Made by a program: the position numbers and the translations under genes
Notes under the pieces: generated by a model
The model's input: only the letters and a program-made list of their open reading frames with translations
Databases searched by the model: none
What the model was told of the DNA's origin: nothing
Shown here: in pieces, positions 7,599 to 24,513 of the stretch
How the letters are laid out: the number at the start of each line of letters is the position of its first letter
Numbering within the stretch: the stretch's first letter is position 1
DNA from: Shouchella clausii
Lineage (GTDB): Bacteria > Bacillota > Bacilli > Bacillales > Bacillaceae_D
Reading direction: 5' to 3'
Assembly: GCF_001598215.1 (NCBI RefSeq)
Contig: NZ_BCXJ01000005.1
Span: forward strand, 496,001-560,000
DNA length: 64,000 bases

Positions 7599-7626
7599 CC
7601 CCTTGCCCAAATTGTAATGGTTCATC

Positions 7627-7654
7627 ACCTTTTTAGATGGATATCCATATCGTG
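7627..7654 (+). promoter_or_regulatory. Sigma-K-like promoter (AC-N17-CATATCGTG)
   Basis: AC at 7627-7628 and CATA at 7646-7649 are 17 bp apart, as in mother-cell sigma-K promoters (AC-N16/17-CATAnnnTA). The last two -10 bases are TG rather than TA. It lies about 30 bp before the 7684 gene. Confidence 0.3.
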
Positions 7655-7683
7655 TACTATCCTAGAAAAAGGTGGTGCAATGC

Positions 7684-7890
7684 TTGGGCTATTATTACGG
7701 AGGATTTGAAAACAACTGCTGCTGCCCTCCCCCGCCTTGTGGGGGATACGGTTATGGACCTGGCCCTTACTACGGGCCGAGAGGATTTGGCGGCGGCGGC
7801 TTTGCGATTGCGATTGTTGTCGTGCTCTTCATTTTGATTATTATCATTGGCGGCGCCGGCTTTTGGGGTGGGCGTGGACTGCCTTGCTAA
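7684..7890 (+). CDS. Small Gly/Tyr/Cys-rich membrane protein, YjcZ-like
   Basis: About 68 aa. The Gly/Tyr-rich N-terminus contains Cys-Cys-Cys followed by four prolines. The single hydrophobic C-terminal helix (FAIAIVVVLFILIIII) ends in Gly-rich residues, as in small YjcZ-family sporulation proteins. I prefer TTG at 7684 because AAGGTGG lies 8 nt upstream and the protein then begins MGYYYGG; a GTG at 7672 would overlap the ribosome site. Function unknown. The sigma-K-like promoter and the family suggest expression in the mother cell. Confidence 0.6.
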   Translation: MGYYYGGFENNCCCPPPPCGGYGYGPGPYYGPRGFGGGGFAIAIVVVLFILIIIIGGAGFWGGRGLPC

Positions 7891-10234: not shown

Positions 10235-10537
10235 CTCCCTAACAGCTCCCTTGCTAATTGGTAAGTCTTCAAAAAATATGACAAAAATCATAGGATAAAA
10301 GATTCTACTGTTAGAGTAGCACACTTGCCGATACCTTTGAACCTCTCATGACTAAAGTCACAAGATTGTTTGCAAACAGAACATCTTTGATGTGTCGTTG
10401 CATCCTCAAGCATCAGCGTTTTGCCCTTCTCCTTTCGAAGAAAACCGGGAATCTTACATCTTTTGTTTTTTCCTTCTGAGGAATGATCACAAGGAGACCA
10501 TACTATCTCTTCTTTCGTATGTTAAACCCATTATAAA

Positions 10538-10573
10538 TAAAAAAAGCGTACGAAAGCCTCTGCTTTCGTACGC
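10538..10573 (-). terminator. Terminator after nitroreductase gene
   Basis: A 12-bp perfect stem, GCGTACGAAAGC/GCTTTCGTACGC, with a 4-nt loop. Seven T residues follow on the minus strand. Confidence 0.9.
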
Positions 10574-10581
10574 TCTTGTCA

Positions 10582-11154
10582 TTAAGAACGGATAATATTG
10601 ATTTTATCAGCAATTGGCGTCCGTTCTTTTGCTTCAGGAATAAAATCGCCATAACCAATCATTAACGTTGCGACAATTTTTTCTCCAGGCTGAACACCAA
10701 TGGCTTCACGGAAGACAGGATTGTAAATCCAATCATTGGTACGCCAAATCATGCCAATGCCTCTGGCCCAGGCAGCAAGCTGGATGTTTTGAATCATGGC
10801 ACAAACCGCCCCATAATCTTCATCCCACGTTTTTTGACGCGGATCCTCAGGCATAACTACAACAAGATGGAGGGGAATTTCCCTAAAATAAGCTGCCTTT
10901 TTTTGCGCTTTTTCAGGGATCTTCCCATCGCTCCCTGCTTGTGTTTTCAAATAGGCGTCTACAAACTGTTTTTTCCCTTCTTCAGCGTATAGAAGAAAAC
11001 GCCAAGGTTCCGTTAATTTATGGTTGGGCGCCCACTTTGCAACTTCTAATACATCGACTATTTCTTCAATGGATACAGGATCAGGTTTAAATTTTTTAAT
11101 AGAGCGCCTTCCCTTAATAAGCTCGTCAATTGCTTTTACTTGGTTCAATTCCAT
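10582..11154 (-). CDS. NAD(P)H nitroreductase family protein
   Basis: 190 aa, full length for a short FMN-dependent nitroreductase. The N-terminal RRSIKKFKP is the FMN-phosphate-binding pattern of the family. WAPNHKLTEPWRF and the C-terminal GYGDFIPEAKERTP are also typical. It would reduce nitro or quinone compounds with NAD(P)H in the cytoplasm; the true substrate is unknown. ATG at 11154 with AAGGA 10 nt upstream is preferred to GTG at 11160. A sigma-A promoter and a Fur-type box lie directly upstream. Confidence 0.9.
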   Translation of the reverse strand: MELNQVKAIDELIKGRRSIKKFKPDPVSIEEIVDVLEVAKWAPNHKLTEPWRFLLYAEEGKKQFVDAYLKTQAGSDGKIPEKAQKKAAYFREIPLHLVVVMPEDPRQKTWDEDYGAVCAMIQNIQLAAWARGIGMIWRTNDWIYNPVFREAIGVQPGEKIVATLMIGYGDFIPEAKERTPIADKINIIRS

Positions 11155-11190
11155 TTTCACTCATTCCTTCGTTCTCCATTCTTACCCTTT

Positions 11191-11238
11191 AGTCTAACGA
11201 AAGGATCAGGCAAACGCAAGGAATGATTCTCATTTTCA
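11191..11238 (-). promoter_or_regulatory. Promoter with adjacent Fur-family box, nitroreductase gene
   Basis: The minus strand has TTGCGT (11219-11214), a 17-bp spacer and TAGACT (11196-11191). Five bp upstream of the -35 lies TGAAAATGAGAATCA (11238-11224), 12 of 15 matches to the 7-1-7 Fur consensus TGATAATNATTATCA. PerR or Zur could use a similar site. Confidence 0.5.
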
Positions 11239-11239
11239 T

Positions 11240-12010
11240 TTAGATCGTGATAATAATCGCATCATATCCCCGGCTCTTTAATTCAGCAACAAGCGCTTCT
11301 GCATTGGCTCTAACCGAAAAAGCGCCAACTTGCACACGGTAAAGAGAACCACTTCGGATAATTAAGGCTTCATAGCCGTCTGCTTGAAGCCGTGCTTGGA
11401 GGGCTTCTGCATTAGCGCGTTGGGAAAAAGCGCCTGCTTGCACACGGTAAATCGTGCCGTTACCGCCAGAATTACGCTGCAAATCGAACGCTTGCGCCAA
11501 ACCATTTACATGACCACGAGCGACACGGGTCAAAAAGGCCGGATCCCGAAGCTTGGCCGCATCGTTGGCGTTATCAATGAACAGGTTTTCTGTTAAAATC
11601 GCTGGCATTGTGGACGTACGTAAAACTGCAAAATTAGCGGTTTTCTTTCCTCGGTCCGTTCCGCCAAGTTGTTGCATAATCGCCGGATGGATAATATTTT
11701 GTGCCCGAACAGACCCGCTTGTCTGCGATGTGTGAATAAACGACTCAAACCCGGTTCCACCCCCTGCGTTAATATGCACAGATAGAAAATAATCAGCACC
11801 CCAGTTGTTTGCCATATTCGTCCGTTCTGATAAAGAGACGGCCGTATCGCCTGTTCGGCTCATCCGGACTTCTGCGTTTTCATATTCAGACACTAACATA
11901 TCACGAATTTGCGTCGCAATTGACAGTGTTAAGTTCTTCTCTTGCATGCCATTTCCTACCGCACCTGGATCGTTACCACCATGTCCTGGATCAATAAAAA
12001 TTTTAACCAT
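11240..12010 (-). CDS. N-acetylmuramoyl-L-alanine amidase with two SPOR repeats (endolysin)
   Basis: 256 aa. The N-terminal Amidase_3 domain has zinc-ligand motifs DPGHGG, the QEKN region, SVHINA and the catalytic Glu in AILTENLF. Two SPOR-type repeats follow (YRVQAGAFSQRANAEAL and YRVQVGAFSVRANAEAL), which bind denuded glycan. It cuts the amide between MurNAc and L-alanine. GGAGG lies 8 nt before ATG at 12010. It is the last gene of the tail cassette, after the holin, so it most likely lyses the producing cell. CwlC-type amidases of sporulating bacilli have the same layout, so a host origin of the module is possible. Confidence 0.9.
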   Translation of the reverse strand: MVKIFIDPGHGGNDPGAVGNGMQEKNLTLSIATQIRDMLVSEYENAEVRMSRTGDTAVSLSERTNMANNWGADYFLSVHINAGGGTGFESFIHTSQTSGSVRAQNIIHPAIMQQLGGTDRGKKTANFAVLRTSTMPAILTENLFIDNANDAAKLRDPAFLTRVARGHVNGLAQAFDLQRNSGGNGTIYRVQAGAFSQRANAEALQARLQADGYEALIIRSGSLYRVQVGAFSVRANAEALVAELKSRGYDAIIITI

Positions 12011-12300
12011 AAATAATTCCTCCTTAATAATAGTAGGTGCTTGTCCTAAGCGTATATAGGCTGAAGGCAACGCCAACAGCCTTCCACAATGTTGATTAGG
12101 ACAGGACTCCTCCCATCCTGTAAGGGTTAATCTCAACACCTGACCAGTAGTAGTCAACCCTTACAATCTACTTGTATGAAACAAAGGGTCCTGCCGACAT
12201 GGACAAACGTTAGAAACGAATTGAATTAGGTGAAAAATCCCGCGAATAGCTAGGATTGATCCTCTTTGCATTTCCATTACACACTAAATTTAGAATTTTT
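12011..12300 (-). other. 290-bp structured gap between holin and amidase
   Basis: No convincing gene. There are two inverted repeats: ACAGGA/TCCTGT (12101-12121) and the 10-bp TGTAAGGGTT/AACCCTTACA (12119-12165, 27-nt loop). They share three bases and so could be alternative structures in the transcript. No T-run follows, so a simple terminator is not supported. Confidence 0.4.
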
Positions 12301-12729
12301 CTATAAACCCTTTTGATTTTTCTTATTTGGCTTGTCTTCACCTGAGTCCCTATCTTCATCGCTTTTCGCAAAACCTAACAATTTTTCCCGAATCACAGGT
12401 GGGATTTTCACTCCACTGGCCGCTAAATTTTCTACAATACTCAAGCACTCATTCGCGATATAAAAAAGCACAGTTGCCGACGCAACCATGCCTTTCAAAT
12501 CTAATACAATATCAATCATATTGGAAACAATAATAACGACGAAAATCCCAATTTTCTGAGCAAAACCGTACAAAGAAACCCGGCTGCGAACGCTTTTGTT
12601 TTTAATTGCTTTTGCAATACCGGTGGCAATGTCAAGAACCATCAGCAAGATAAGCAAATCAAGAAATTTGACATTGCCGAAAAGGTAAAGGCGAGCGACA
12701 TCTAAGGACAAGTCAGCGAACGTGCCTAT
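12301..12729 (-). CDS. Phage-type holin with no standard start codon
   Basis: About 142 aa of the phage_holin_4/TcdE-like family. Three hydrophobic segments are visible (LLILLMVLDIATG, IFVVIIVSNMIDIVL, ATVLFYIANECL), then a charged C-terminal tail (KSDEDRDSGEDKPNKK), as usual for holins. It would form membrane lesions that release the amidase. The frame has no ATG or GTG where one is expected. The strong site AAAGGGGGG is 7 nt before an in-frame ATA (12729). An out-of-frame ATG at 12736 stops after seven codons, and an in-frame TTG at 12711 has no ribosome site. Open frame extends to 12804 upstream. Confidence 0.8.
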   Translation of the reverse strand: MGTFADLSLDVARLYLFGNVKFLDLLILLMVLDIATGIAKAIKNKSVRSRVSLYGFAQKIGIFVVIIVSNMIDIVLDLKGMVASATVLFYIANECLSIVENLAASGVKIPPVIREKLLGFAKSDEDRDSGEDKPNKKNQKGL

Positions 12730-12829
12730 ATAGCATCCCCCCTTTCGATGGCATGCTGTTATTCTTAAGCGGTTCTTGTTTCCTGCTTGAAATCCGTTAA
12801 CCAAACACGATTATCCTAAATAGAGTATG

Positions 12830-13060
12830 TTACTCAGAAAGGCTTTCCTGTGTTTCTTCCTGCTTGATGTCCTCATTTTCTTTTTGCAGTAAAGCGTAAG
12901 CGTTTTTAAAGGTTTGTAATTGCGCATCCATTTCTGATAACTCTAACTCCCGCTGTCCTAGCCTTTCCGCTAAATACTCAACACGTGCATTGGCTTTTTG
13001 TACCTCATACTCGAGTGATTGGATGTATTGCTTTTGTTCAGAGGATAACTCTTGACTCAC
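12830..13060 (-). CDS. Small coiled-coil phage protein
   Basis: 76 aa, highly charged, with a heptad pattern through most of its length (EYEVQKANARVEYLAERLGQ). No membrane segment. GTG start at 13060 overlaps the stop of the tail-tip gene, with AAAGGAGG upstream. It sits between tail tip and holin, where siphophages often place small accessory tail or lysis-regulating proteins. Function unknown. Confidence 0.7.
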   Translation of the reverse strand: MSQELSSEQKQYIQSLEYEVQKANARVEYLAERLGQRELELSEMDAQLQTFKNAYALLQKENEDIKQEETQESLSE

Positions 13061-13061
13061 A

Positions 13062-16000
13062 TCAGCGACCTCCTTTCAGAGCATTGACTTGCCTTTGAAT
13101 CTCTTTAATCTCATTTGCCTGTTGTTTTATTATCCGGTCTTGTACTTTCACTTTAGCTAGAATCCCAGCGATAAAGTCATCCATTGACAATGCCGGACCT
13201 TCGTCAGACGGCGTGCGAAACTCTTCCGGTAAATCCTCTGAAATAGGACCATAATTTGGTCGAACAAAAGCACCATTTCTATCTGGTGTTTTGTAGTGGT
13301 AAGACATTAATTCAACTTGGTCTATTAAATGAGCGAAGTAATCCAGGTCAAGGGGTTCAATGTTTTCCTTTACGTTACGTGATGAAATCTTGTGCATCGT
13401 AAAGTAATGCATATTGTTGGTCCAAACTTCCCATAACCGGAAATTACTCATCCCTACAAGACCCCATCCAGAGGTATCAGGCCTAAAAGTTGGATGAAGT
13501 CCTGATTTACTTGACGTATTTCCCCTTCCCATTACCCAATATCTGCTGCCGCTGCTGCCACGCATTGGATCAAAACGAAACTCCGTGGACCTTGAGATAA
13601 TCCGGTTGACTGAATCAATAAATGTAGAACTTGCACTGTAAATGGTAAACGTATCATTTGTGTTTGCACCAATATAACCCATGTTTTTGCCGCCAGGGTC
13701 GAAAAACCTTACAAGGGCCGGATCGCTGCCCTGACCATTAAAATTTCGTATGCCGATTAGAATTCGGTTCCGGGCATTGCTGTCAAACGCCTTAAATCCG
13801 TCCGCATCCATCTGCACAGCCATACTGCCATTCATCGCCCTAACCATAATATTGGCTGCATCTAACGTGCCACTTGTGATTTTAGCGGCACTAATGTCGC
13901 TAATTTTGGCATTGGTAATAGTGGCATTTGCAATTTTCGCGTTGTCAATTTGCCCATTGCCAATTTTTGCGTTTGTGATTGCGCCGTTTTCGATCTGTGC
14001 CGTGCCGATAATGGCGTTTTGCAACTTCGCCTTGCTGATGGATGCATCGGCGATCGCAGCGGTACCGACTGCTGCCTCCCCAATATGGGCCGTCTTAATT
14101 ACGCCATTGTCAATTAGTGTTTGCCCTGTGATGCGTGTTTTTGCACCATCAATGCGGACACCTTCACTAGATAAGTTAATGGCTGCAATGACACCGTTTT
14201 TCTCGACACGGGCATTGATTTGATCGGCTTGTACACTTAACTTAGACTCTGCTTGTGACATGCGGTTCCCTAAACCAGTGGTTTCAGACGCTACTAGGCT
14301 GATCTCGCGTGCATTTTGGTCGATTGATGTTTGGAGGCTGGATACTTCCGATATATCAACCACCTCTATATCATCGACACGAACCCAACCGACGCTATGA
14401 TTAGTCACCATAGACACCGATAAAGCCTTGACGTTACTAGGACACTTCCACGTACCTTTTATTTGTCGCCACTCTGTTTGCGCTCCATCCCATCCCCAGT
14501 CTGCTACCAACGTACCTGTATCTGCGTTGCCAAACCTAAATTTCTGGTTATCTCGTACTCCATTTGCGTCAGCACTCGTCTTATACCAATAGGAAATTCG
14601 GTAAGTGTGCCCAGGTACTACCGCAACAGGGTTAGTAACGCTTTGGCTTCGAGTTCTAGGGGATGAACCTCCCTTAAATTCCAATGCTTTCTTACCTGAA
14701 TAGGCATCGTCCACGATCTCGCCAGGCCCATGCCAGCCTAGCCCCCCGCCCTCAAAACTTCCGTCTGGGATGATATTGTCGCCCGTTGTAGCAACGTGCG
14801 ACAGCTCTGAAATTGTAGTGCTGAATTGGTCAGCTCTTAACTCTAGCCGGGACGTACGACTACTGACATTAGTAATAGCTCCGGCATTATTATCTACTCT
14901 TGTCTCCACGTTTGAGACATCGGCCTTTAGCCCGTTAATTGTCGTTTCAAAATTAGACTGCTTCTCTGACACTCCTTCAACCGTCTTGCTCAGTTCGCCA
15001 AAATCAGTCCTTAATCCGCTAGCGGTTAACTCTAATTCGCCAATTTGGCTGGAGAGTTGCCCTGTCGTGTCCTCAAACTCGTCTTTCGTGATTCTTGCAG
15101 AAATGGCCTCTGCATTCGCTCGTATGTCTGCCTCTTGAGCACTCAGCTTTCCGTCCATATTCGTTAAGCGGCTAGCTGTGGTTGATAGTTCGCCTTCAAT
15201 GACGTCTATGTTAGTCGCTATGTCAGATACAGTCCCGTTAATGTCACCAACCTCACGGGTTAGATTATCGGTAATGCTGTCTAACTCAGCTAGTTTGCCA
15301 TCTGTGAATTGGAACTTGCCGTCCACATACTCTAACCCAGCTTTTTCAGCCAATTCGCTATTTATTTGCTCGGTAACGGTCTTGATTTCCTCGTCGGTGT
15401 ACTGCTTGGCATCTTGCTTTAATTGCTCGCGGGCCGACTCTTCCAGTTGATCCAAATTAATTGACCCATCGGCAATAATTTGCGCTTCCTTACTTAGTTC
15501 GCGAAGTTTGGCAGCCAAGTCCTCGCCAAAGAAAATGTCCTCTGATACGATTCGTGCTGTCGTAGCGCTTACTTCTTCCGACAAAGGCGAGTAACGCTCG
15601 TAATAGTTAAAAGCACGGACACGGAAATAATACTGTTTGTTCGGTTCGCCATGAAAGCTATAAGTATTGCCACCCCCTCGGTAAACGAGTGTTTCTGGGC
15701 TTCCTGCAAACCCTTGTACTTCGCTTGCATAGACTTCATAACCTGCAATATACGTGTCTAAATGGCTAAAATCCCATTCCACCATGACGGCAGCATATAA
15801 ACCGGTAGCTGTCACATTAGCGGGTACTTCAGGAACAATGTCTGGATACGAATTGGGCTGAATTGGCCTCCCTGCCCTATCCCATACATGGGCATTTTCC
15901 TTTACTTTTGCCAGCACCCTTTCCACTTCTTGATTTGGGGTTGAAAATAGCGGCAGAAACTCCCCTAATACGACTTCATCCTTGCTAGGATCAAGCAAGT

Positions 16001-17051
16001 CGCGTTTTAGCTCAATTACTCTCGTCTTTTCTTGAATGATCGGATAAATGTCTTCATCAAGGACAGCAGCCGTGTCCCCTAATTGAATACGTTCATGTTC
16101 AAAATTGGAGAGTCTGAATAAATCGACAACCTTTCCAGAATAATGGACAAGTGGCGTACATACCGTTTGCAAATATTCATAGGTTTGTTCTAATAAACGG
16201 ACAGGGTTGTCTTCATCTGATTCTTCCAAAATGCCAAATCGATGCCTTTTTCCTTCATAATCCCCTCGTCCCCATAAAGCTCTTGCCTGCTCATCGCCAA
16301 GCCAGTCTTGCCCTTTTGGTTTATCAATAGGGTCGCCTTTCGCTTTGCTCCATTCGATATCTTTAAACGTAATCGGTTTGCCTTGGTCCCCATTTTCATT
16401 CTCGGTCGGTTTCCCGTAAGCTCTGATCGCCGTTTTGACATTGCTCATATCAATGGTGCGTTCAATTTCGGTTAAGTCTTTTCTATATTCAAACCGTTTG
16501 CCTGTATCTGCCCCTCGGCGTGAAAGAATATCAATGTACCGCCCGGTAATTTTATTTCCTTCAATTGTCACTCGACATCTTAGTTCGCCTTTAAATGTAT
16601 TTAGCAACTCGGCTACACAATATTTGGCGTTGGTTTGGCTAAACTCTACAGGAGCTTCCCCTAATTCGGCAACGACGCCTGGCTGCCACCGTGTCCCAGC
16701 AAGAATACTAGAAAGGGCTTGCCTGACGTTTGTCTGATTATACAGAATATGCTCTATATGTTCATCAAGCAGTTCATTGACGGCATGTTCACATATAACC
16801 GTTTTATAAGCGGCATCCCCATGGCGGTCTTCTACAACAACAATTTCAAAAAGTTGAAAATCGCCATCGACATCATAAAAAGCGACTTGTTGGCCTTCGA
16901 CGATTTCAAGTGCATGGTCACAATCGGCAAGGATTTTAAATTCAAAGGAATGTGCATTGTTCAGTTGTTCTGTATGCACCGCTTCGATTAGATGCCGTTC
17001 ATCGAGAACAGCTCTGCATGTTTCGTGCTTGTCGAAAATAAATACGTTCAT
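13062..17051 (-). CDS. Tail-tip/receptor-binding protein (Tal-like) with CBM-like and S74 chaperone domains
   Basis: 1329 aa. The first ~370 residues match the phage minor structural/Tal N-terminus that caps the tail. A fibronectin type III module follows at about 404-499 and a long coiled coil at 510-750. A jelly-roll carbohydrate-binding-like module spans about 760-897 (NIIPDGSFEGGGLGW to VRVDDIEV), and pseudo-repeats of the type NAKIxNGxI at about 990-1060 suggest a beta-helical or fibrous stem. From about 1220 comes a Peptidase_S74-type intramolecular chaperone with the Ser/Lys region SSRNVKENI and a terminal coiled coil. It probably defines target specificity. ATG at 17051 is preceded by GGAGAGGGGG. 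It lies 17 nt after the distal tail gene. Confidence 0.9.
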   Translation of the reverse strand: MNVFIFDKHETCRAVLDERHLIEAVHTEQLNNAHSFEFKILADCDHALEIVEGQQVAFYDVDGDFQLFEIVVVEDRHGDAAYKTVICEHAVNELLDEHIEHILYNQTNVRQALSSILAGTRWQPGVVAELGEAPVEFSQTNAKYCVAELLNTFKGELRCRVTIEGNKITGRYIDILSRRGADTGKRFEYRKDLTEIERTIDMSNVKTAIRAYGKPTENENGDQGKPITFKDIEWSKAKGDPIDKPKGQDWLGDEQARALWGRGDYEGKRHRFGILEESDEDNPVRLLEQTYEYLQTVCTPLVHYSGKVVDLFRLSNFEHERIQLGDTAAVLDEDIYPIIQEKTRVIELKRDLLDPSKDEVVLGEFLPLFSTPNQEVERVLAKVKENAHVWDRAGRPIQPNSYPDIVPEVPANVTATGLYAAVMVEWDFSHLDTYIAGYEVYASEVQGFAGSPETLVYRGGGNTYSFHGEPNKQYYFRVRAFNYYERYSPLSEEVSATTARIVSEDIFFGEDLAAKLRELSKEAQIIADGSINLDQLEESAREQLKQDAKQYTDEEIKTVTEQINSELAEKAGLEYVDGKFQFTDGKLAELDSITDNLTREVGDINGTVSDIATNIDVIEGELSTTASRLTNMDGKLSAQEADIRANAEAISARITKDEFEDTTGQLSSQIGELELTASGLRTDFGELSKTVEGVSEKQSNFETTINGLKADVSNVETRVDNNAGAITNVSSRTSRLELRADQFSTTISELSHVATTGDNIIPDGSFEGGGLGWHGPGEIVDDAYSGKKALEFKGGSSPRTRSQSVTNPVAVVPGHTYRISYWYKTSADANGVRDNQKFRFGNADTGTLVADWGWDGAQTEWRQIKGTWKCPSNVKALSVSMVTNHSVGWVRVDDIEVVDISEVSSLQTSIDQNAREISLVASETTGLGNRMSQAESKLSVQADQINARVEKNGVIAAINLSSEGVRIDGAKTRITGQTLIDNGVIKTAHIGEAAVGTAAIADASISKAKLQNAIIGTAQIENGAITNAKIGNGQIDNAKIANATITNAKISDISAAKITSGTLDAANIMVRAMNGSMAVQMDADGFKAFDSNARNRILIGIRNFNGQGSDPALVRFFDPGGKNMGYIGANTNDTFTIYSASSTFIDSVNRIISRSTEFRFDPMRGSSGSRYWVMGRGNTSSKSGLHPTFRPDTSGWGLVGMSNFRLWEVWTNNMHYFTMHKISSRNVKENIEPLDLDYFAHLIDQVELMSYHYKTPDRNGAFVRPNYGPISEDLPEEFRTPSDEGPALSMDDFIAGILAKVKVQDRIIKQQANEIKEIQRQVNALKGGR

Positions 17052-17068
17052 TCTATCCCCCTCTCCCT

Positions 17069-17788
17069 TTATAACCATTTCTCCTTATATGCCATCTCTA
17101 CTGTCGCGGTTTCCGGTCGAACGGCAATATGATTTTCGCCAGGATGTAAAAATATATCTTTAAATCCTGAACGCAGATCAAGCAAAGGCATCGCCCATTC
17201 ATCGTTATAACGAATTGATGATTTTTCACTGTCAATCACAACCTGGTCGCCTGAATGGAATACTCGATTTAACTTAAATCGTTTCCCGTCTTTTTCTATT
17301 TGCATGTTTTCTGTTTCTTCATGGAAAAGAATTGAGTAAACCGGCATCGCTGGTGCAGTAGCTGTATAGTCGACAACTATGCTCTCCGTGAAATCAAGCT
17401 CTTTTTTTGCCCCTTCTGCGACAGGATCAGATACTTGAAAGACTAATTTTCCTGTTTTCAACAAGCCTTTGCCTGTAAAATCGGAAAAGTCGACTACAAA
17501 TGCATGGTAGGCTTTATCTGGCTCATCAAAAAATACCAGTTTGCCTTCTTCTGCCGAAAGGTAATAAGCCATTTCTCGCATGGCTTTTCTTTGTTCTTCA
17601 TAACTATTGGAAATCATTAAAACATCAAGCTCGATCAAGTACTCGCCCCACCGTTTATTTGAAGCGTGGACGCCGTGGTGGACTTCAGTGTTTGTAAATT
17701 TCCGTGGCGGCAAAGAGGCGCGGTTGTCATCGACCAGTTTGAGCCACTTTGAAAAATTCACGCCATTAAAAGAAAACCAAGCATTCAT
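17069..17788 (-). CDS. Distal tail protein (Dit family)
   Basis: 239 aa, the usual size for siphophage Dit proteins that form the hexameric hub joining tail tube to tail tip. The N-terminus (MNAWFSFNGVNFSKWLKL) and the KRWGEYLIELDVLM and KLVFFDEP regions are typical of the phage tail family. The second half is a galectin-like region. It sits between tape measure and Tal, the canonical position. Confidence 0.9.
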   Translation of the reverse strand: MNAWFSFNGVNFSKWLKLVDDNRASLPPRKFTNTEVHHGVHASNKRWGEYLIELDVLMISNSYEEQRKAMREMAYYLSAEEGKLVFFDEPDKAYHAFVVDFSDFTGKGLLKTGKLVFQVSDPVAEGAKKELDFTESIVVDYTATAPAMPVYSILFHEETENMQIEKDGKRFKLNRVFHSGDQVVIDSEKSSIRYNDEWAMPLLDLRSGFKDIFLHPGENHIAVRPETATVEMAYKEKWL

Positions 17789-17803
17789 TTTCTCGCCTCC
17801 TTT

Positions 17804-19585
17804 TTAGTAGTGTCCTCTTGCACGCTGTGCCATTTGTCCTCTCCGTCCAAGTTCAACATCCATAAACGGTGCGGTCACTCTAGCAATTTGTTTGCCTTCA
17901 AGGTGGACTGGCACTTCAATCGTCATCTTGCTAGAAGGATTTGCTGACAGCCCCTGCAACTCTCTTGCTTGTACATTGCTATCTAACCGCGCCAATCCCC
18001 GTCCTAGTGAAGAACCAATATCATGAAGAGAAGGCAGCGTTAATGCTTTTTCAAACGCATGTTCAATTTTAGGCACATCTCGGTTAATGGAGTCTTTTAT
18101 TGGCCCGCCAAAGTTAAGACGGTGAATGTCTTGCAGTGGTCCTTCTTTAGCAGGAGAGAAAGGCAAGAAATCCCGTATCTTTCCTGCAACATTGGAGATT
18201 GCATTTTTTACTGCCCCAACTGCACTTGTAATTCCCTCTGCAATGCTATTAACAATGTTTTTCCCTGCTTCGCGAAAACGGCCAACAAAATTCAACACGG
18301 CTTGCCATGCGCTTTGAATTCCATTAGAGATAGCCGTTTTGATATTAGTCATTGCGGTTGTCACACTTGAGCGGACAGCGTTAAAAATAGTTGTAAATGT
18401 GTTTTTTATCGCATTAAGAGCACTTGTTACCGCTGTACGTGCCGCCGAAATCCCGGTTGAAATAAAATTCTGTACAAAGCTAATCGCCGTTGTAACTACA
18501 TTGCGAACAGCATTAAATACAGTTAAAAATACTGTCCTAATTGCCGTTAACACAGATTGAACCACATTCGAGGCAGTTGTTAAGCCTGTTGAAATGGCAT
18601 TGCGGATAAAGCCCATTACTGTCATGACTACGTTTTGAATAGGAGTAAAAATGGTGGAGAAAAACGACCTTATTCCATTTAATGCCGTCAAAAACAAATT
18701 GCTTATTGCTCCCCACATTTTCGAAAAAACACCCATTAAACCGGTAAACAAAGAACTAGCAATTTTTAAAAGCCGCCCAAACAATAACAACTGAACGACA
18801 TTCCATATCGCCTCAAGCGCGCCAGAAAAAAGCTGCTTAATTCCTTCCCACATTAAAGAAAAATCTCCAGTAAAAAGGCCTGCAAACGCCTTTACTAGCC
18901 CCATGATGATGTTCAATGCTCCCGAAATAACTCCTTGAATATTGCCCCATACCATTTGAATAAGCGACACAATGAACGGCCAAACAAATTGCATAATCGC
19001 CAGAATGCCGTTCATAACTGGTTCAATAATGCTCTTAATTCCATTAAATATATTGGTTACTGCTTGCATAACAGCAGCTCCATGTTCATCCCAAAACGCC
19101 TTGATTTGCGCCAATTTTTCAGCAACAAAGGTAACAATCGTAGCCACTACCGTTTCCATCGTGGCCTTTATTGCCTCCCACGCTTGGATGACCCCATTGC
19201 GAAACGTTTCGTTTGTCTGCCAAAGATACATAATGCCTGCAACAAGAGCGGCAATCGCAGCGGTGATCAAAATGATTGGCGTTAATGTCCCTGCTAATCC
19301 TCCTGCGATTGCAGTAAACCCAGCGGCTATAAGGCGGCCTGTCGAAGCTAGTGCATCAAATGCAGTTTTAAGTGCAACTATTCCTAACAAAGAGGCTCCT
19401 AAACCAGATATTAATCCTAGAAAGACCTCTTCCCAATTTCCTGCTGACATACTAATGTTAATATTATTTACCTCTTCAACAATACCTTGTAGACTACTTT
19501 TTAATCCCACCAGAGCTTTCCCGTTCTTCTCCAAATCCTCAAAATTAATCCCGACATTTGGTGACTCTCCTATTGAAATTGCCAT
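17804..19585 (-). CDS. Tail tape measure protein
   Basis: 593 aa. Alpha-helical, Ala/Ile/Val-rich, with hydrophobic segments near residues 55-110 and tandem helical repeats around 350-450 (blocks such as ISTGISAARTAVTSALNAI). The C-terminal segment has DFLPFSPAKEGPL, common to Bacillus-group tape measures. It sets tail length and guides tube polymerisation. At about 0.15 nm per residue a tail near 90 nm is expected (inference). ATG at 19585 has AGGAGG 6 nt upstream; ATG at 19588 is the alternative. The stop of the frameshifted chaperone overlaps this start. Confidence 0.93.
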   Translation of the reverse strand: MAISIGESPNVGINFEDLEKNGKALVGLKSSLQGIVEEVNNINISMSAGNWEEVFLGLISGLGASLLGIVALKTAFDALASTGRLIAAGFTAIAGGLAGTLTPIILITAAIAALVAGIMYLWQTNETFRNGVIQAWEAIKATMETVVATIVTFVAEKLAQIKAFWDEHGAAVMQAVTNIFNGIKSIIEPVMNGILAIMQFVWPFIVSLIQMVWGNIQGVISGALNIIMGLVKAFAGLFTGDFSLMWEGIKQLFSGALEAIWNVVQLLLFGRLLKIASSLFTGLMGVFSKMWGAISNLFLTALNGIRSFFSTIFTPIQNVVMTVMGFIRNAISTGLTTASNVVQSVLTAIRTVFLTVFNAVRNVVTTAISFVQNFISTGISAARTAVTSALNAIKNTFTTIFNAVRSSVTTAMTNIKTAISNGIQSAWQAVLNFVGRFREAGKNIVNSIAEGITSAVGAVKNAISNVAGKIRDFLPFSPAKEGPLQDIHRLNFGGPIKDSINRDVPKIEHAFEKALTLPSLHDIGSSLGRGLARLDSNVQARELQGLSANPSSKMTIEVPVHLEGKQIARVTAPFMDVELGRRGQMAQRARGHY

Positions 19586-20282
19586 CATCTTCCTCCTTTC
19601 CATTTGTTTGCTTCCATTTGCATGTTGCCTTCATCCCATTCGGCAGCGCTGCGTTTCTTTTTGTCTTGCAAAAAACGTTGGAAGGCGCTGTCTTCGGGCA
19701 AGCCTCTAACAAATACTAAGAACCGCCTCCAAGATAGGCGGTTCTCAAATCCTTCTTTTGTTAAATTTATGCCATAAAACCGGTAGAAATCTGCTTCTAG
19801 CGCTGCCCACGCCCAAATGATTATCCGCGAATCTTGGTTTTTTTTTGCGCTTCGGCTGATTGTGCGCTTGAGCCTTTGACATCATATCCCCAAAGTTTCA
19901 TAATGTCAGGCACAATATGTTTAAAAACGAAATTGACGCCTGCTTTCGACTGTTCGAGATGGGCTAAAAATTCCTTCCCTAACATTAGTTCAATAAATTC
20001 ATACATTTTTTCTTCTGGCACAGCCATTTGCGTTTTGCCTCTCACTTTTTGTACACAATGGCGAAAGTAAAATGTCGCAAACTGGAAGGGCATTTCAGTT
20101 GGAATTTGAAAATATTCGCCCGCAAACTTGACATATTGATGCTTTTGTTCATTCGCTAGCTCAGCTAAAGCATCATCATAATCGGCAACTAGCTGTTCTT
20201 GTTGGATTTGGGCAAGCTCTTCCGCTTTTTCATTGAGCAATTGCAAACGGTCCGCCGATTTATTCGCCACCTGGAGCACCAT
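19585..20282 (-). CDS. Tail assembly chaperone, -1 frameshift product (gpGT-like)
   Basis: The upstream protein reads through to the A-run at 19838-19846, slips back one base and continues 84 codons in the -1 frame to TGA at 19587-19585. The extension contains EADFYRFYGINLTKEGF and NRLSWRRFLVFVRGLP, a strong match in style to the Gp15/T-extension of Gram-positive siphophages. The fused protein is about 232 aa. It would carry the tape measure while the tube protein is recruited. The extension has no start codon or ribosome site of its own, which supports frameshifting. Confidence 0.85.
19821..20282 (-). CDS. Tail assembly chaperone, zero-frame product (gpG-like)
   Basis: 153 aa from ATG at 20282; TTG at 20291 is also open. 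Largely helical and charged; FQIPTEMPFQFATFYFRHCVQ and the DIMKLWGYD region are visible. It lies between tube protein and tape measure, as in lambda G and in Gram-positive siphophages. Its 5' end overlaps the tube gene. The zero-frame stop (TAA) is 15 nt after the slippery run. No DNA or enzyme motif. Confidence 0.88.
   Translation of the reverse strand: MVLQVANKSADRLQLLNEKAEELAQIQQEQLVADYDDALAELANEQKHQYVKFAGEYFQIPTEMPFQFATFYFRHCVQKVRGKTQMAVPEEKMYEFIELMLGKEFLAHLEQSKAGVNFVFKHIVPDIMKLWGYDVKGSSAQSAEAQKKTKIRG
19838..19846 (-). other. Programmed -1 ribosomal frameshift site
   Basis: Nine consecutive A residues on the minus strand are read as CAA AAA AAA ACC in the zero frame, containing the slippery heptamer A AAA AAA. 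The -1 frame stays open for 84 codons with a recognisable protein family signature, while the zero frame stops 15 nt later. Polymerase slippage on A9 is an alternative mechanism. Confidence 0.85.
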
Positions 20283-20688
20283 CTTCCACAACTGCTTGTT
20301 TTGTGTTTACTCGGAACTCACCAGAGAACGTATATACACCTTCAGATACAGAACCTTCTTCTTCATACGTGGTAAAGAACCCTGTTAAGGCGTACCCAGC
20401 TCCGTTTGCATCTGTATGCTTAATAACCGCTTCTTGACCTAATTCAGCTACTCGCTTTAACTCTGTTTGGCCATCATCTTCAAGCAGTGCGATCCCTTCC
20501 ATCGCCACCGTCTCTCCAACAGAGGCAGCAATGAATTTTTGGCGGAAAACGCCGCCTCCTTCGACTGTGTCCCCAAGACCAGTTACATCCGCCTCTTCAA
20601 CCTCTAGTGAGTGTGTGAAAGACGTTAATTTCGCTACTACTCGTCCATTTACTTCTACCCGTGTTCCAGCAAATTTCTTTTCTGCCAT
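20260..20688 (-). CDS. Major tail tube protein
   Basis: 142 aa, beta-rich. The N-terminus MAEKKFAGTRVEVNGRVV and the EEADVTGLGDTVEGGGVF segment fit siphophage major tail proteins, which stack as hexameric rings to make the tube. ATG at 20688 has GGAGGA 6 nt upstream. It is the first gene of the tail operon. No sheath gene accompanies it, so the tail is non-contractile. Confidence 0.88.
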   Translation of the reverse strand: MAEKKFAGTRVEVNGRVVAKLTSFTHSLEVEEADVTGLGDTVEGGGVFRQKFIAASVGETVAMEGIALLEDDGQTELKRVAELGQEAVIKHTDANGAGYALTGFFTTYEEEGSVSEGVYTFSGEFRVNTKQAVVEDGAPGGE

Positions 20689-20808
20689 GTCCATTCCTCC
20701 AAAATTAATGTTTGTCCGTTTATCCAAAGCAAAGGCGGTGCCGGCACCAGTAACAAATGGATAACGAATGTGCAGCTTGGTTTTAGCTAACCTTGCTACA
20801 CTACCATC

Positions 20809-20875
20809 ATAATACGGAACAAGCGTTCGTTCCTGTCATGTTTCTGCCATGATTCTGCCACGATTATGGTAAAAT
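20809..20875. promoter_or_regulatory. Divergent control region of tail operon: LexA box and three 11-bp repeats
   Basis: GAACAAGCGTTCG at 20817-20829 fits the Bacillus LexA box CGAAC-N4-GTTCG at 9 of 10 fixed positions. On the minus strand it lies between ATGACA (20839-20834) and TATTAT (20814-20809), a 19-bp spacing that is poor for an unaided promoter. Three head-to-tail 11-mers follow at 20833-20843, 20844-20854 and 20855-20865 (ctgtcatgttt, ctgccatgatt, ctgccacgatt), one helical turn each, overlapping that -35. On the plus strand an extended -10 (TGGTAAAAT, to 20875) serves the 20918 gene. Confidence 0.7.
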
Positions 20876-20917
20876 AGTAGAATGGGAGAACACCTTACGA
20901 AAGGATGGTTGCTAGCT

Positions 20918-21757
20918 ATGGAACACACTTTTAAAGGGCACGGATCAACATTAGTAGTTTTAGAAGATAGTATTTTACTAAATCACGGAAAAGGTAAGCA
21001 ATTTACAAGTAGATCTAAATCCACAGTACAGATTTTTTTTACAGAGTTAGATACATTAATATTGAATAAACCGGGGCTACTTTCGGGTTATTGCTACTTT
21101 TTACGAAAAGGCTACACCATAGAGGGAATGTCCAAACCGGATATAATGGTTGACGAATACGCTATCACATTAGCTTTTTCTCACCAATATAAACGCTTTT
21201 TAAAAGCTAAAGACCTAATCGATAAACACTTAAAAAATATTTCAGATTCACCGACTGATAATACAAAAACAACTAAACTAAATAACATGATCGCTGACTT
21301 GATTCAGGATCCTAATAAAAGTGTTAAATATAGCGGTTATTCAGGAAGCCTTCTCATAAAAGCTGACACAGTGACTATTCAGTATAAAGCAATATTGCAT
21401 AGGGGAGGAAAAGGGTTTAAAACAATTGATATTGATAAGATATCTAGTTTAGCTCTTGCAAAGCCATCCTTTTCCGGTGGAAAAGTAAAAATTTTTTATG
21501 AAGGTTTCACAAATCGTGGGTACCGAGATTTAAACGAAGAGGCTAACGAAATCACGATCACAAACATTAATCAATACAACCAAATGCTTGAAGCCAAGGA
21601 GCTAATTCTCGCTCTCAAACGTTATCATGAGAATCAAGTACATTCGACTGATCCGCTCTCTCCCGCTGAAGAAATTCGCAAATATAAATCATTGCTTGAT
21701 GACGGTATCATATCTGAAGAGGAATTTGAGAAAAAGAAGAAGGAATTGCTTGGCTAA
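20918..21757 (+). CDS. DUF4429-like tandem PH-type protein with C-terminal SHOCT domain
   Basis: 279 aa. Two related halves, about residues 1-75 and 135-215, each show the pattern of a short beta-strand domain (HTFKGHGSTLVVLEDSILL and GYSGSLLIKADTVTIQYK). The C-terminal ~30 residues form a SHOCT motif (IRKYKSLLDDGIISEEEFEKKKKELL). ATG at 20918 has AAAGGA 12 nt upstream; an upstream ATG at 20882 lies at the predicted transcription start. It is more AT-rich than its neighbours. It is divergent from the tail operon and shares its control region. Function unknown; a role in tailocin control or self-protection is only a positional guess. Confidence 0.7.
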   Translation: MEHTFKGHGSTLVVLEDSILLNHGKGKQFTSRSKSTVQIFFTELDTLILNKPGLLSGYCYFLRKGYTIEGMSKPDIMVDEYAITLAFSHQYKRFLKAKDLIDKHLKNISDSPTDNTKTTKLNNMIADLIQDPNKSVKYSGYSGSLLIKADTVTIQYKAILHRGGKGFKTIDIDKISSLALAKPSFSGGKVKIFYEGFTNRGYRDLNEEANEITITNINQYNQMLEAKELILALKRYHENQVHSTDPLSPAEEIRKYKSLLDDGIISEEEFEKKKKELLG

Positions 21758-21791
21758 AAACAGGCATGGCCGATTAAACTGTTGAAACAAT

Positions 21792-21823
21792 AAAACCAGC
21801 GTTCATTTGCTCATGAACGCTGG
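21792..21823 (-). terminator. Terminator after ArpU-like regulator
   Basis: A 10-bp perfect stem, CCAGCGTTCA/TGAACGCTGG, with TTTTATT following on the minus strand. It may also stop the convergent 20918 gene. Confidence 0.85.
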
Positions 21824-21841
21824 CAAAGTGTTGTCTTCCGC

Positions 21842-22267
21842 TCAGATGCCTTCCAACTCCCCGTGTTCTTCCTCCCAAACAGAAAACAAATAGTGTAGCT
21901 TTGTAAACGCCCTGTTTTTTATGCGGTAATATTGGCGCTCGCTAATGAGCATATCCATGTATACTTGATAATCGAACCGGTCTGCCTCTTGCAAATAGCG
22001 GCGGACAATCAACTCGCGTTCAGCAGGCGGCAAGCGATTGACGCATTGTTCGATCATGTTCATGTAGTTCTTTCTTTTTTGGGCGGCTTCGATATTTTTT
22101 AGCGCCGTCTGTTCGGTTGTAGAAAAGAACGATCGAGCTCCCGTGTGAGCAGGAACGAATTGAAAGCTCTGTGTCGTTTTTGGAAGTTCTTCATAGGTTA
22201 GGGTCAGTCGATAAAGATTGTACGTTTCAAGCTTTTTTTCGACATAGCGTTTTTCTGTTTTGTTCAT
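21842..22267 (-). CDS. ArpU-family phage late transcriptional regulator
   Basis: 141 aa. The C-terminal half has a sigma-70 region 4-like helix-turn-helix (LPPAERELIVRRYL to SERQYYRIKNRAFTKLHYLF), as in ArpU/RinA/LtrA regulators that switch on phage late genes. The N-terminal part is helical. ATG at 22267 has AAGGGG 7 nt upstream. A LexA-type box lies in its promoter. The likely role is SOS-triggered activator of the tail operon to its left; this is inference. It lies about 80 bp downstream of ehuA, so read-through from that operon could also express it. Confidence 0.82.
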   Translation of the reverse strand: MNKTEKRYVEKKLETYNLYRLTLTYEELPKTTQSFQFVPAHTGARSFFSTTEQTALKNIEAAQKRKNYMNMIEQCVNRLPPAERELIVRRYLQEADRFDYQVYMDMLISERQYYRIKNRAFTKLHYLFSVWEEEHGELEGI

Positions 22268-22303
22268 AACCATTCCCCTTCATGCTCTCTTTCCTACTAA
22301 AAG

Positions 22304-22326
22304 AGAACGAAGGTTCGCTAAATCAA
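22304..22326 (-). promoter_or_regulatory. LexA-type box in the regulator promoter
   Basis: The minus strand reads TTGATT (22326-22321) followed by CGAACCTTCGTTCT (22317-22304), which carries GAAC-N4-GTTC, then TTTTAG as a weak -10 18 bp after the -35. The box sits between -35 and -10, the usual repressing position, about 38 bp before the regulator start. Confidence 0.65.
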
Positions 22327-22346
22327 AGAAAACTAGAAAATTTTCC

Positions 22347-23168
22347 TCAGGCGTGGAAACGCCCTAAAAATGTTTTTAGCCGTTCTGTTTTTGGGTGGTT
22401 TAAGACGTCATCAGGCGTGCCTTGTTCGGCAATGCTGCCTTTATCAAGAAACAAAATCCGGTCAGCGACGTCACGGGCAAAATCCATTTCATGGGTAATC
22501 AACATCATCGTTGTTTTTCCTTCTTCTGCAATATCGCGAATCACTTGGAGCACTTCCCCGACCAGCTCAGGATCAAGGGCTGCCGTTACTTCATCAAACA
22601 GCATCACTTTCGGCTGCATAACCAGCGAACGGGCAATGGCTACACGTTGCTGCTGCCCACCGGACAATTGCGATGGATACATGTCAACTTTGTCGGCAAG
22701 CCCGACTTTTTCAAGCATGGCGACAGCCCGTTCTTTTGCCTCGTCTTTGCTCAAGCCAAGGACGTGGATGGGCGCTTCGATGCAATTTTTCATGATCGTC
22801 ATATGGGGAAACAAATTGTATTGTTGAAACACCATCCCGATATTGCCCCGTACTTTGCGCAAATGCTTTTCGTCTGCTGGCTTTAGCTCACCGTTCACTT
22901 TTTTATGCCAGAGCATTTCTCCATCCACTTCAATCGTCCCTGCCGTTGGCTGCTCCAATGTCATTAGCATGCGAATAATTGTTGTTTTGCCAGATCCAGA
23001 CGGGCCGATCAAAGCGATTTTTTCGCCTTTTTTTACGTCAATGTCTAAATTGTTCAAAACGACCGTATCGCCAAATGCTTTTTTCACATTGCGGTAACGG
23101 ACAAGCGTTTCTGCTTGCTCCATTTGTACCACAGCAGCTGGTTCCACTTTCTCCATGACTTCACTCAT
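22347..23168 (-). CDS. ehuA: Ectoine/hydroxyectoine ABC transporter, ATP-binding protein
   Basis: 273 aa. Walker A GPSGSGKTT, Q-loop region QQYNLFPH, signature LSGGQQQR, Walker B VMLFDEVTAALDP and switch ITHEMDFA are all present. The insertion KVNGELKPADEKHLRKVRG is characteristic of EhuA-type ATPases rather than general polar amino acid ATPases. It energises import together with the two permeases upstream. ATGA overlap with ehuD shows tight coupling. Last gene of the ehu operon. Confidence 0.88.
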   Translation of the reverse strand: MSEVMEKVEPAAVVQMEQAETLVRYRNVKKAFGDTVVLNNLDIDVKKGEKIALIGPSGSGKTTIIRMLMTLEQPTAGTIEVDGEMLWHKKVNGELKPADEKHLRKVRGNIGMVFQQYNLFPHMTIMKNCIEAPIHVLGLSKDEAKERAVAMLEKVGLADKVDMYPSQLSGGQQQRVAIARSLVMQPKVMLFDEVTAALDPELVGEVLQVIRDIAEEGKTTMMLITHEMDFARDVADRILFLDKGSIAEQGTPDDVLNHPKTERLKTFLGRFHA

Positions 23169-23845
23169 GTTTTCACTCCTCTAGTTTCGATTTTATTGCC
23201 GTGCAGCGTACCGACTTTCCGTTCTAAATAGCGAATAAACGCAGCGGATGGATAGCTTAACGCTAAAAATAAGAAACCAACGATCGTAATCGGCTCTACA
23301 TAACGCCAATCGCTTGTACCGATTGACTGGGCAACAGCCATCATTTCTACGACAAAAATCGCCGAAAGTAACGGGGTTTCCTTAAATAAGACGATTAAAT
23401 AGTTTCCAAGCATTGGAATGACTGGAGGAATAGCTTGGGGCAAAATGATTCGTCTCCATGTTTGGGCACGAGTGAAATTTAATGCCTTGCTTGCTTCCCA
23501 TTGGCTTTTAGGAACAGCTTCAATCCCCGAGCGGTAAATTTCTGAAACGTACGTAGCATAATGGAGGCCAAGTACGATGGCGCCTGTTTGGAAGCCTGTT
23601 AATGGCGTTGTATAGTAAACGAAAAACAGTTGGACAAGCGGTGGTGTTGCCCGAATAAATTCAATAATACCGGCAACCGTGAGTGCCAACGGCTTAAAAG
23701 AAGCACGTCGCAAAAGCGTTAAAACGAGGCCAGCTGTTAGCGAAATGCAATAAGCAATGATCGTAGCTGCAATCGTTACTGTAATAGCGGAAAGAATTTC
23801 AGGAAAGATCGCGATCGCAAATTCCCAATCCCATGTTTTGTTCAT
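23165..23845 (-). CDS. ehuD: Ectoine/hydroxyectoine ABC transporter permease
   Basis: 226 aa polar-amino-acid-type permease with about five membrane helices. The EAA-loop region GIEAVPKSQWEASKALNFTRAQTWRRIILPQA contacts the ATPase. The start ATG overlaps the ehuC stop (ATGA). It is assigned to ehuD from operon position and partners. The ligand is inferred from the adjacent EhuA and EhuB proteins. Confidence 0.85.
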   Translation of the reverse strand: MNKTWDWEFAIAIFPEILSAITVTIAATIIAYCISLTAGLVLTLLRRASFKPLALTVAGIIEFIRATPPLVQLFFVYYTTPLTGFQTGAIVLGLHYATYVSEIYRSGIEAVPKSQWEASKALNFTRAQTWRRIILPQAIPPVIPMLGNYLIVLFKETPLLSAIFVVEMMAVAQSIGTSDWRYVEPITIVGFLFLALSYPSAAFIRYLERKVGTLHGNKIETRGVKT

Positions 23846-24513
23846 GATGTGCTCACTCCTTTAGAAGCCCGTTTTTCCAGCCAGCGGGCAAGGAAAATCA
23901 AAGGCAGCGCTAAAATAAAGTAAGCGACCAGCAAGTATGTGTAAATTTCAATTTGGTTGGACAGTGAGTTGTTGCTGCCTCGGAGTACATTGGCTTGGAA
24001 CGTCATGTCGGCAAGCGCGATAAAATAAACAAGCGATGTCCCTTTCAATAATTCAATCGCGTTATTGCCAAAACCCGGCAACATCAAACGGACAGCTTGT
24101 GGCAAAATCACAAGCCTCATCCGCTGCCATTTTGACATGTTCAACGAAATGGCAGCTTCCGTCTGGCCAACGGCAATTGAATGAATCGCCCCTCTCACCA
24201 CTTCTGAAGCATACGCGCCGTAATTTAAACCAACGGCAATTGAACCAGCTAAAAAATTGGACATCGACAGGCCAGGGAAAATCATCGGTAGCGCGTAAAC
24301 AAAAAAGAACATTTGCACAAGCAACGATGTGCCACGGAACAGCTCAACGAAAACAGCAGCCACACTGCGGACGACTGGATTTTTTGAAGTTCGCATCAAT
24401 CCAGCAACGAGAGCGATGCTGTACGCGACGACAGCGCCTACTAAAAAAACTTGGACCGTGATTTCTAGCCCTTTTAGAATAAACGGCATAAAGCTAGAAA
24501 AGTTATTGAACAT
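23842..24513 (-). CDS. ehuC: Ectoine/hydroxyectoine ABC transporter permease
   Basis: 223 aa permease of the same family, about five helices. The EAA loop AIHSIAVGQTEAAISLNMSKWQRMRLVILPQAVR is clear. ATG at 24513 is preferred, with AGAGGTGAG upstream; the frame is open to 24531. It follows ehuB after 75 bp and is coupled to ehuD. Confidence 0.85.
   Translation of the reverse strand: MFNNFSSFMPFILKGLEITVQVFLVGAVVAYSIALVAGLMRTSKNPVVRSVAAVFVELFRGTSLLVQMFFFVYALPMIFPGLSMSNFLAGSIAVGLNYGAYASEVVRGAIHSIAVGQTEAAISLNMSKWQRMRLVILPQAVRLMLPGFGNNAIELLKGTSLVYFIALADMTFQANVLRGSNNSLSNQIEIYTYLLVAYFILALPLIFLARWLEKRASKGVSTS

Follow-up and report, generated by a model that had tools for sequence, protein, structure and literature searches.

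A block of phage-tail and lysis genes in the genus Shouchella very probably encodes an F-type (non-contractile) tailocin, and the N-terminus of its tape measure protein is coupled in its variation to a neighboring gene on the opposite strand. The block lies within a stretch of 64,000 nucleotides (G000:C5:496001-560000), called the window here, of a 4.66-Mb genome that we designate G000. The divergent gene encodes a protein with two PH-like domains and a C-terminal SHOCT tail, recognized by Pfam and by the fold of its model, and is referred to as PH-SHOCT. Our overall reading, to which we assign a probability of roughly one half, is of a domesticated F-type tailocin under SOS control that carries its own immunity gene. 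The strains of this group are alkaliphilic soil bacilli and are not known to be pathogens. An initial annotation of this DNA had recorded the tail and lysis genes, which stand; the plus-strand gene and its link to the tape measure were absent from it. The coupled features are as follows.

20927..21757, plus strand: PH-PH-SHOCT protein, 276 amino acids, candidate immunity protein (SHOCT, 2.6e-9; AlphaFold 2 model with pLDDT 82.9; PH-fold matches); a longer start at 20882 is possible
17804..19603, minus strand: tape measure protein, open reading frame (ORF) of 599 amino acids (phrog_58, 9.8e-73); start probably at 19588
19259..19570, minus strand: polymorphic N-terminal block of the tape measure, residues about 12-115 (alignment, synonymous divergence and site counts)

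We compared 13 genomes of the genus and 41 of the family and mapped the ten loci that bear the tail tube gene. At all ten, a PH-SHOCT homologue sits in the same place beside the tube gene and points away from it. G005 has three copies at its locus; G002, G003 and G006 have two each, and the other six loci have one. Tube-proximal copies are 30-73% identical in most pairs, with 92% and 100% in two pairs. The protein has no strongly hydrophobic segment (19-residue maximum, 0.87), and no match was found to it among the sequences of solved structures.

The coupling is clearest between G000 and G011, which the search tool assigns to the same species. These two are 98-100% identical along the block, except in the PH-SHOCT gene and in residues 12-115, approximately, of the tape measure. 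Synonymous divergence (dS) between them is 2.1 in PH-SHOCT and 2.3 in the tape-measure segment, as against 0.01-0.04 in the tube, the chaperone, the rest of the tape measure, Dit, Tal and the amidase. At positions where G000 differs from G001, which belongs to another species, we then scored G011 as resembling one or the other. In PH-SHOCT (311 sites), G011 is like G000 at 32 and like G001 at 264; in the N-terminal block (148 sites), the counts are 5 and 141. Elsewhere they are 7 and 0 in the promoter (7 sites), 17 and 3 in tube plus chaperone (20 sites), 49 and 0 in the rest of the tape measure (49 sites), and 273 and 1 in Tal (275 sites). Therefore, two separate exchanges involved one allele class, and the 1.2 kb between them was left alone.

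A second clade behaves similarly. Between G003 and G002, dS is 0 in PH-SHOCT and 0.014 in the N-terminal block, compared with 0.16 in the chaperone and 0.25 in the rest of the tape measure. Between G003 and G005, the corresponding pair is divergent (0.76 and 0.49), with values of 0.03 in the tube and 0.05 in the rest of the tape measure. Across the ten loci, PH-SHOCT and N-terminal distances correlate with r = 0.81; the values are 0.59 for the tube, 0.61 for the chaperone and 0.21 for the next 150 residues of the tape measure, and the partial correlation is 0.69 given the chaperone and 0.71 given the tube. G009 groups with G011 and G001 in the trees of both PH-SHOCT and the N-terminal block. 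The coupling is strong in two clades.

We regard matched immunity as the best reading of this coupling, and we hold it with about even confidence; the proposed role comes from few genomes. Consistent with it, the PH-SHOCT gene lies outside the tail operon and is encoded beside the putative weapon at 10 of 10 loci, and intact copies persist in two genomes that lack the tube. One of these, G010, has lost everything from tube to fibre at a second chromosomal site, where 94 residues of one gene are left; ArpU and the amidase are kept, and one intact PH-SHOCT stands next to one with a stop codon. The other, G012, has an interrupted copy and, elsewhere, an uninterrupted PH-SHOCT; some 5 kb upstream of the latter is an Rhs gene that encodes a Tox-URI2 domain. 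In this region (L108:297-10545), a series of small genes, most of which lack a family match (one is LRR-like), separates the Rhs/Tox-URI2 gene from the orphan PH-SHOCT. G004 and G008 have neither tube nor PH-SHOCT, and no plasmid-borne PH-SHOCT was found among 72,556 records.

If the reading is correct, the system might work as follows. DNA damage would lift LexA from the tube promoter and ArpU would activate the operon, as the sites suggest. Tube, chaperone, tape measure, Dit and Tal would then assemble a headless tail of about 90 nm, a length estimated from 599 residues of tape measure, and holin and amidase would, judging from their families, release the particle. Tal would select the target through its variable CBM domain, and the tape measure would enter the target membrane and depolarize it, by analogy with other tailocins. 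The polymorphic N-terminal hydrophobic hairpin would define the killing type. PH-PH-SHOCT, in the cytoplasm or at the inner leaflet, would recognize its own hairpin type and so protect the producer and its kin. The two strongest hydrophobic segments of the G000 tape measure span residues 58-80 and 95-130, and the variable block contains the first and part of the second; we infer from this that the N-terminus could be the killing domain.

Relatives of PH-SHOCT also occur in phages. Searches of phage sequences by tblastn with two PH-SHOCT copies returned 18 distinct records, often sharing little beyond the SHOCT end. Among the 13 records inspected, the gene lies in the lysogeny module in 12: nine have it in the interval from the repressor side to the integrase (with one intervening gene in two cases), and three just past the integrase (two of these near-identical). 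Superinfection-exclusion genes are frequent in lysogeny modules. Proteins directed at tape measures have precedents in Ltp (PMC3952083) and Tab (PMC10884400). An extended proposal, which is tentative and somewhat less probable than the overall reading, is that killing resides in the tape-measure hairpin and immunity to it in the PH-PH-SHOCT proteins, that arrays and orphan copies are kept by strains that encounter several killing types, and that the integrase-side relatives perform superinfection exclusion directed at tape measures.

Several observations weigh against these ideas. In G003 versus G002, dS is also low in tube (0.02), Dit (0.006) and Tal (0.04). The free Mantel test gives p = 5e-5 and ignores phylogeny; when labels were permuted only within two close clades, 8 of 144 arrangements were as good (p = 0.056). 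None of the six forks in the N-terminal tree is well supported. G006 fits poorly: its PH-SHOCT is nearest that of G000 (0.39), and its N-terminal block is far from all others (0.78-0.88), perhaps because of an insertion of about 100 residues. The sample comprises ten loci with one same-species pair, and the use of only the tube-proximal PH-SHOCT copy was a post hoc choice. In bajarodcaudo virus 4, the PH/SHOCT relative follows a minor tail gene and is not beside an integrase.

Published work adds further difficulties. In diffocins, the tape-measure N-termini are at the collar end (PMC11329794); they would therefore leave last. The phage-encoded proteins Ltp and Tab act through the C-terminal end of tape measures, not the N-terminus (PMC3952083, PMC10884400). 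In a 2021 genome-wide screen in pseudomonads, none of nine self-sensitivity hits is in the tailocin cluster, and the authors state that no immunity genes are known (PMC8319346).

The alternative that survives best, although we consider it rather unlikely, is an ordinary F-type tailocin in which PH-SHOCT serves as a regulator, an envelope-stress sensor, a tail part or packaged cargo and, in place of protecting against the tape-measure N-terminus, needs it for that job. Its constant place beside the tube would fit, as would the phage relative after a minor tail gene and the prediction that SHOCT-like domains are membrane anchors (PMC11237479). So would an arrangement in another prophage type, in G003 and G009, where the tape measure is immediately preceded by a SHOCT protein (L048:7242-7877; L047, about 7250-7770), as a tail-assembly helper might; the L048 protein has a weak glycine-zipper match (E = 0.053). 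However, PH-SHOCT and the tail operon occupy different strands, as many as three divergent copies occur at one locus, and where the tail genes have been lost an intact copy is still present.

It is less probable still that PH-SHOCT is a Tab-like anti-phage or anti-tail protein acting on foreign tape measures, the resident N-terminus having changed to escape it. A prophage-made protein, Tab, does target a tape measure (PMC10884400), and the lysogeny-module setting of 12 of 13 phage relatives and the existence of orphan copies would suit such a role. Yet escape alone does not predict joint exchange of both alleles in one class, none of the four PH-SHOCT copies scanned matches any PADLOC 2.0.0 model, and Tab prophages are reported to carry an anti-Tab protein rather than a matched tape measure.

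We give slightly less credence again to chance covariation, in which conserved recombination anchors flank two hypervariable spots and both were, by coincidence, exchanged within one allele class. The small sample, the within-clade permutation, the conserved stretches that bound both blocks, and the near-identity of Dit and Tal in G003 and G002 are all as this account would have them. It is harder to reconcile with coupling in two clades, with the like grouping of G009 in both trees, and with the other history kept by the 1.2 kb between the blocks (17 to 3 sites).

Independent of what PH-SHOCT does, the rest of the block can be assessed from its gene families. Read from 22273 to 11240 on the minus strand, which carries all of its tail and lysis genes in intact frames, the order is ArpU, tube, chaperone, tape measure, Dit, Tal, small protein, holin and amidase. 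The remaining tail features are these.

20260..20688, minus strand: tail tube protein, 142 amino acids (position; fold of a weak model; 76-100% identical in nine relatives)
19821..20291, minus strand: tail assembly chaperone G (position; 69-99% identical in nine relatives)
19585..19846, minus strand: A9 slippery run (19846-19838) with the -1 frame that extends the chaperone (all ten loci)
17069..17788, minus strand: distal tail protein Dit (SPP1_Dit, 1.7e-19; SPP1 gp19.1 chain 2x8k, 2.3e-6)
13062..17051, minus strand: Tal, receptor-binding protein, 1329 amino acids (Prophage_tail, 9.6e-38; CBM_4_9; Peptidase_S74; phrog_19445 Tal, 1.1e-113)
14412..14777, minus strand: CBM_4_9 domain of Tal, residues 759-880 (Pfam; varies between species)
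12830..13060, minus strand: small coiled-coil-like protein (no Pfam or PHROG family match; homologue in three of nine other loci, all near relatives)

Neither tube nor chaperone matches a Pfam or PHROG family at E <= 0.01. The tube model is of low confidence (mean pLDDT 58.9); among the matches that Foldseek ranks highest for it are lambda gpV, 80alpha and the monocin tube MttP, with E from 1.4e-3 to 3.1e-3 and none below 0.001, and a comparison with solved-structure sequences gave only a chance match (0.033). Position and the likeness in fold to lambda gpV and MttP are suggestive of a tube. After the A9 run, the -1 frame of the chaperone continues for 84-87 codons, is conserved, and reaches the tape-measure start at every locus, which indicates that the predicted frameshift is real. 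The tape-measure profile matches the 80alpha tape measure (2.8e-27) and monocin FtbJ (622 amino acids, 9.1e-19), and the CBM_4_9 domain of Tal is likely to bind the receptor. In a BFVD fold search, a protein of Anoxybacillus phage A403 named 'Putative tail tape measure protein' came second. The initial annotation had proposed intact tail genes in siphophage order, a frameshifting chaperone and an ArpU-type regulator at the edge; these assignments stand, that of the tube from its position and the weak model and that of the chaperone from its position and the conserved frameshift.

In the window we see siphophage-type tail genes together with a holin and an endolysin. No head, portal, terminase, integrase or sheath family was detected by Pfam or PHROG among the ten proteins of the block, in agreement with the initial annotation, and no head gene was recognized in the stretches mapped around the ten loci. 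Three head families were also searched for genome-wide in the ten genomes, although they do not cover every head type: phrog_9 terminase occurs in three, phrog_12 portal in four and phrog_10 major head in three, always on another contig or at a distance, the nearest being about 245 kb away on the same contig in G006. The suggested check for head genes adjacent to the cassette in sister strains did not refute a tailocin. As a control, a separate siphophage-type prophage of G000 (L045/L046, G000:C4:62000-101800) shows capsid, portal, terminase and integrase; the method would therefore have seen head genes in the block. The amidase and holin of this prophage are 57-65% identical to those of the tailocin.

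Ten of the 41 family genomes match the tube profile: nine of the 13 from the genus, and one from another genus. When 397 genomes were drawn across the order, four contained it, all among the ten. Among 50,697 phage records, no match was found to tube or chaperone, compared with 543 for Tal. One IMG/VR contig, L106, is identical to G006 in the three stretches tested. A recent deletion of head genes was considered and rejected, given that no head-bearing relative was found and no phage record carries the tube.

Six loci are at the site of the window (five with both flanks seen, and G009 with one because its contig ends). Three others (G002, G003 and G005) are at the second site and have other Dit, Tal and fibre genes, and that of G039 is at a third kind of chromosomal site, near a gene that we take to be gyrA. 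At the first site, five genomes (G012, G003, G010, G002 and G005) are empty: the nitroreductase and ABC transporter genes are neighbors, about 125-205 bases apart.

From tube to Tal, genes are in single frames at nine of ten loci, which answers the concern that stop codons might appear across strains; the exception, G009, comes from an assembly that is 86% complete and has split frames in its ABC genes too. Between species, the ratio of nonsynonymous to synonymous divergence (omega) is 0.00-0.31 in tube, chaperone, the rest of the tape measure, Dit, Tal, amidase and ArpU, the highest value being in the C-terminal part of Tal. The structural genes are under purifying selection.

Expression of the operon is predicted to depend on the following elements.

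21842..22273, minus strand: ArpU-type phage late transcriptional activator (phrog_248, 2.5e-25)
20809..20860, minus strand: tube promoter, with TGGCAG-type repeats every 11 bp (20860, 20849, 20838), a possible -35 ATGACA (20839-20834) and a -10 TATTAT (20814-20809)
20817..20828, no strand assigned: LexA-type box GAACAAGCGTTC in the promoter spacer (motif search)
22305..22316, no strand assigned: second GAACNNNNGTTC box, upstream of arpU; also in three near relatives and not at other loci

Similar repeats are present in the eight relatives compared, and ArpU is their candidate binder. The LexA-type box of the window sits between the possible -35 and the -10, behind the three repeats. All nine loci of the genus have a GAACNNNNGTTC box in the interval that separates the tube from the divergent gene; G039 has no exact box. 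The number of such boxes in the 64 kb is not significant (2 found, 1.06 expected; at least 2 in 28 of 100 shuffles). Because the count by itself is unremarkable, the case for LexA is one of position and conservation, from which SOS control of the tube promoter is inferred. A palindrome, GTGCCGGCAC, is found in the tube leader (20738-20747) at all eight loci of the genus compared there, and is absent in G039. No Rfam match was found over 10000-24000.

The lysis module is made up of three features.

11240..12010, minus strand: endolysin, Amidase_3 plus SPOR (Pfam, 3.4e-49 and 6e-20)
12301..12711, minus strand: holin, probable TTG start at 12711 (Phage_holin_4_1, 1.1e-29; the same start codon in G007 and G001)
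12713..12736, minus strand: seven-codon mini-ORF with its own ribosome site, ending one base before the holin TTG

The initial annotation had treated the holin start as the one exception to intact frames. The oddity is present, but it is not a sign of decay, because the layout of mini-ORF and TTG is identical in the window and in all three near relatives. This layout looks like coupled translation rather than damage, and the coupling could possibly set the timing of lysis. Also, the lysis cassette that had been described holds for the window and is less constant elsewhere. A holin homologue occurs at four of ten loci (the window, G007, G011 and G001) and the amidase at eight of ten; no amidase was found in the G039 stretch, and the G009 contig ends early. 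In G002, G003 and G005, the amidase adjoins arpU. The lysis part is thus not uniform across loci, and further holins may have escaped recognition.

Overall, the data argue for a probably functional tailocin rather than a decaying prophage, as had been proposed. A remnant without function would share the siphophage late-operon gene order, would likewise leave its particle to be predicted from genes alone, and might lack a holin homologue as six of ten loci do, but we consider it very improbable and reject decay, in light of omega of 0.00-0.31 between species, conserved and intact frames, the absence of heads at ten of ten loci and the conserved LexA-type box.

On the two sides, the block is bordered by ordinary genes, with a PBP gene also on the nitroreductase side.

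10582..11160, minus strand: nitroreductase (PF00881, 5.6e-28)
22347..23168, minus strand: ABC transporter ATPase (PF00005, 2e-38)

Within 11165-11240, the amidase stop adjoins a sequence that we take, from its motif, to be Fur-box-like, and that is also present ahead of the nitroreductase at the empty site. At other loci there is additional content. G007 and G001 have an operon of 2-hydroxycarboxylate transporter, malic enzyme and two-component genes inside the tailocin locus (L034:13860-19059 and L036:13988-19113). Transporter and malic enzyme are also beside the second-site tailocin in G005 (L037:522-3064) and G003, and in G002 malic enzyme is at the edge of the stretch. At E <= 1e-120, the transporter is found in three of 11 genomes searched (G001, G007 and G005), always adjoining the tailocin, and this operon and the tailocin may travel together. 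The second-site locus of G005 encodes a 957-residue protein with a GH18 domain in the fibre position (L037:13618-16491), with similar 949-residue proteins in G003 and G002; from these, tip modules seem to be exchanged whole.

The closest known counterpart is the Listeria F-type monocin, described (PMC6872733) as having a regulatory module, a tail module with tape measure and receptor-binding protein, holin and endolysin, no capsid genes, and SOS production. The match of the tape-measure profile to FtbJ and the resemblance of the weak tube model to MttP extend this likeness. In contrast, the present block is in another host genus and at other sites, ArpU is the only regulator seen, and a PH-SHOCT gene varies together with the tape measure, although no search for such a gene was made in monocin loci. 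A phage-tail bacteriocin described in PMC10598620 is likewise flexible, non-contractile and related to siphophages, but comes from a Gram-negative host and is likened here by description, not sequence.

PH-SHOCT itself can be compared with Ltp of phage TP-J34, which is prophage-encoded and directed against an incoming phage's tape measure. However, Ltp, a lipoprotein exposed at the cell surface, is proposed to bind the C-terminal end (PMC3952083), whereas PH-SHOCT couples with the N-terminus. Tab, from Pseudomonas prophages, similarly targets a tape measure, but blocks tail assembly, depends on the tape-measure C-terminus and is countered by anti-Tab (PMC10884400). Effector-immunity pairs of polymorphic toxins and bacteriocins resemble the present system in having a linked variable pair, extra copies and immunity kept after loss of the weapon, and an orphan PH-SHOCT is downstream of an Rhs toxin gene. 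They differ in that the putative effector here is a tape measure inside a phage tail, and protection is only predicted.

As an F-type tailocin, the block is a new member of its type, in a genus for which a search of open-licence PMC papers found no report of a tailocin. The same literature yielded no paper joining tape measure protein, tailocin, immunity and membrane depolarization. The resistance of tailocin producers to their own particles is attributed to the cell surface (PMC8319346). With a matched immunity gene, this tailocin would be unusual, such weapons being thought to lack immunity genes. If the immunity reading is true, it would explain how a producer and its rival can have the same receptor-binding protein, which is the case for G000 and G011, and it would point to the tape measure as the lethal part of the particle. 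It would also provide a function for an uncharacterized phage gene family (phrog_888 and phrog_2700) that is often found beside integrases.

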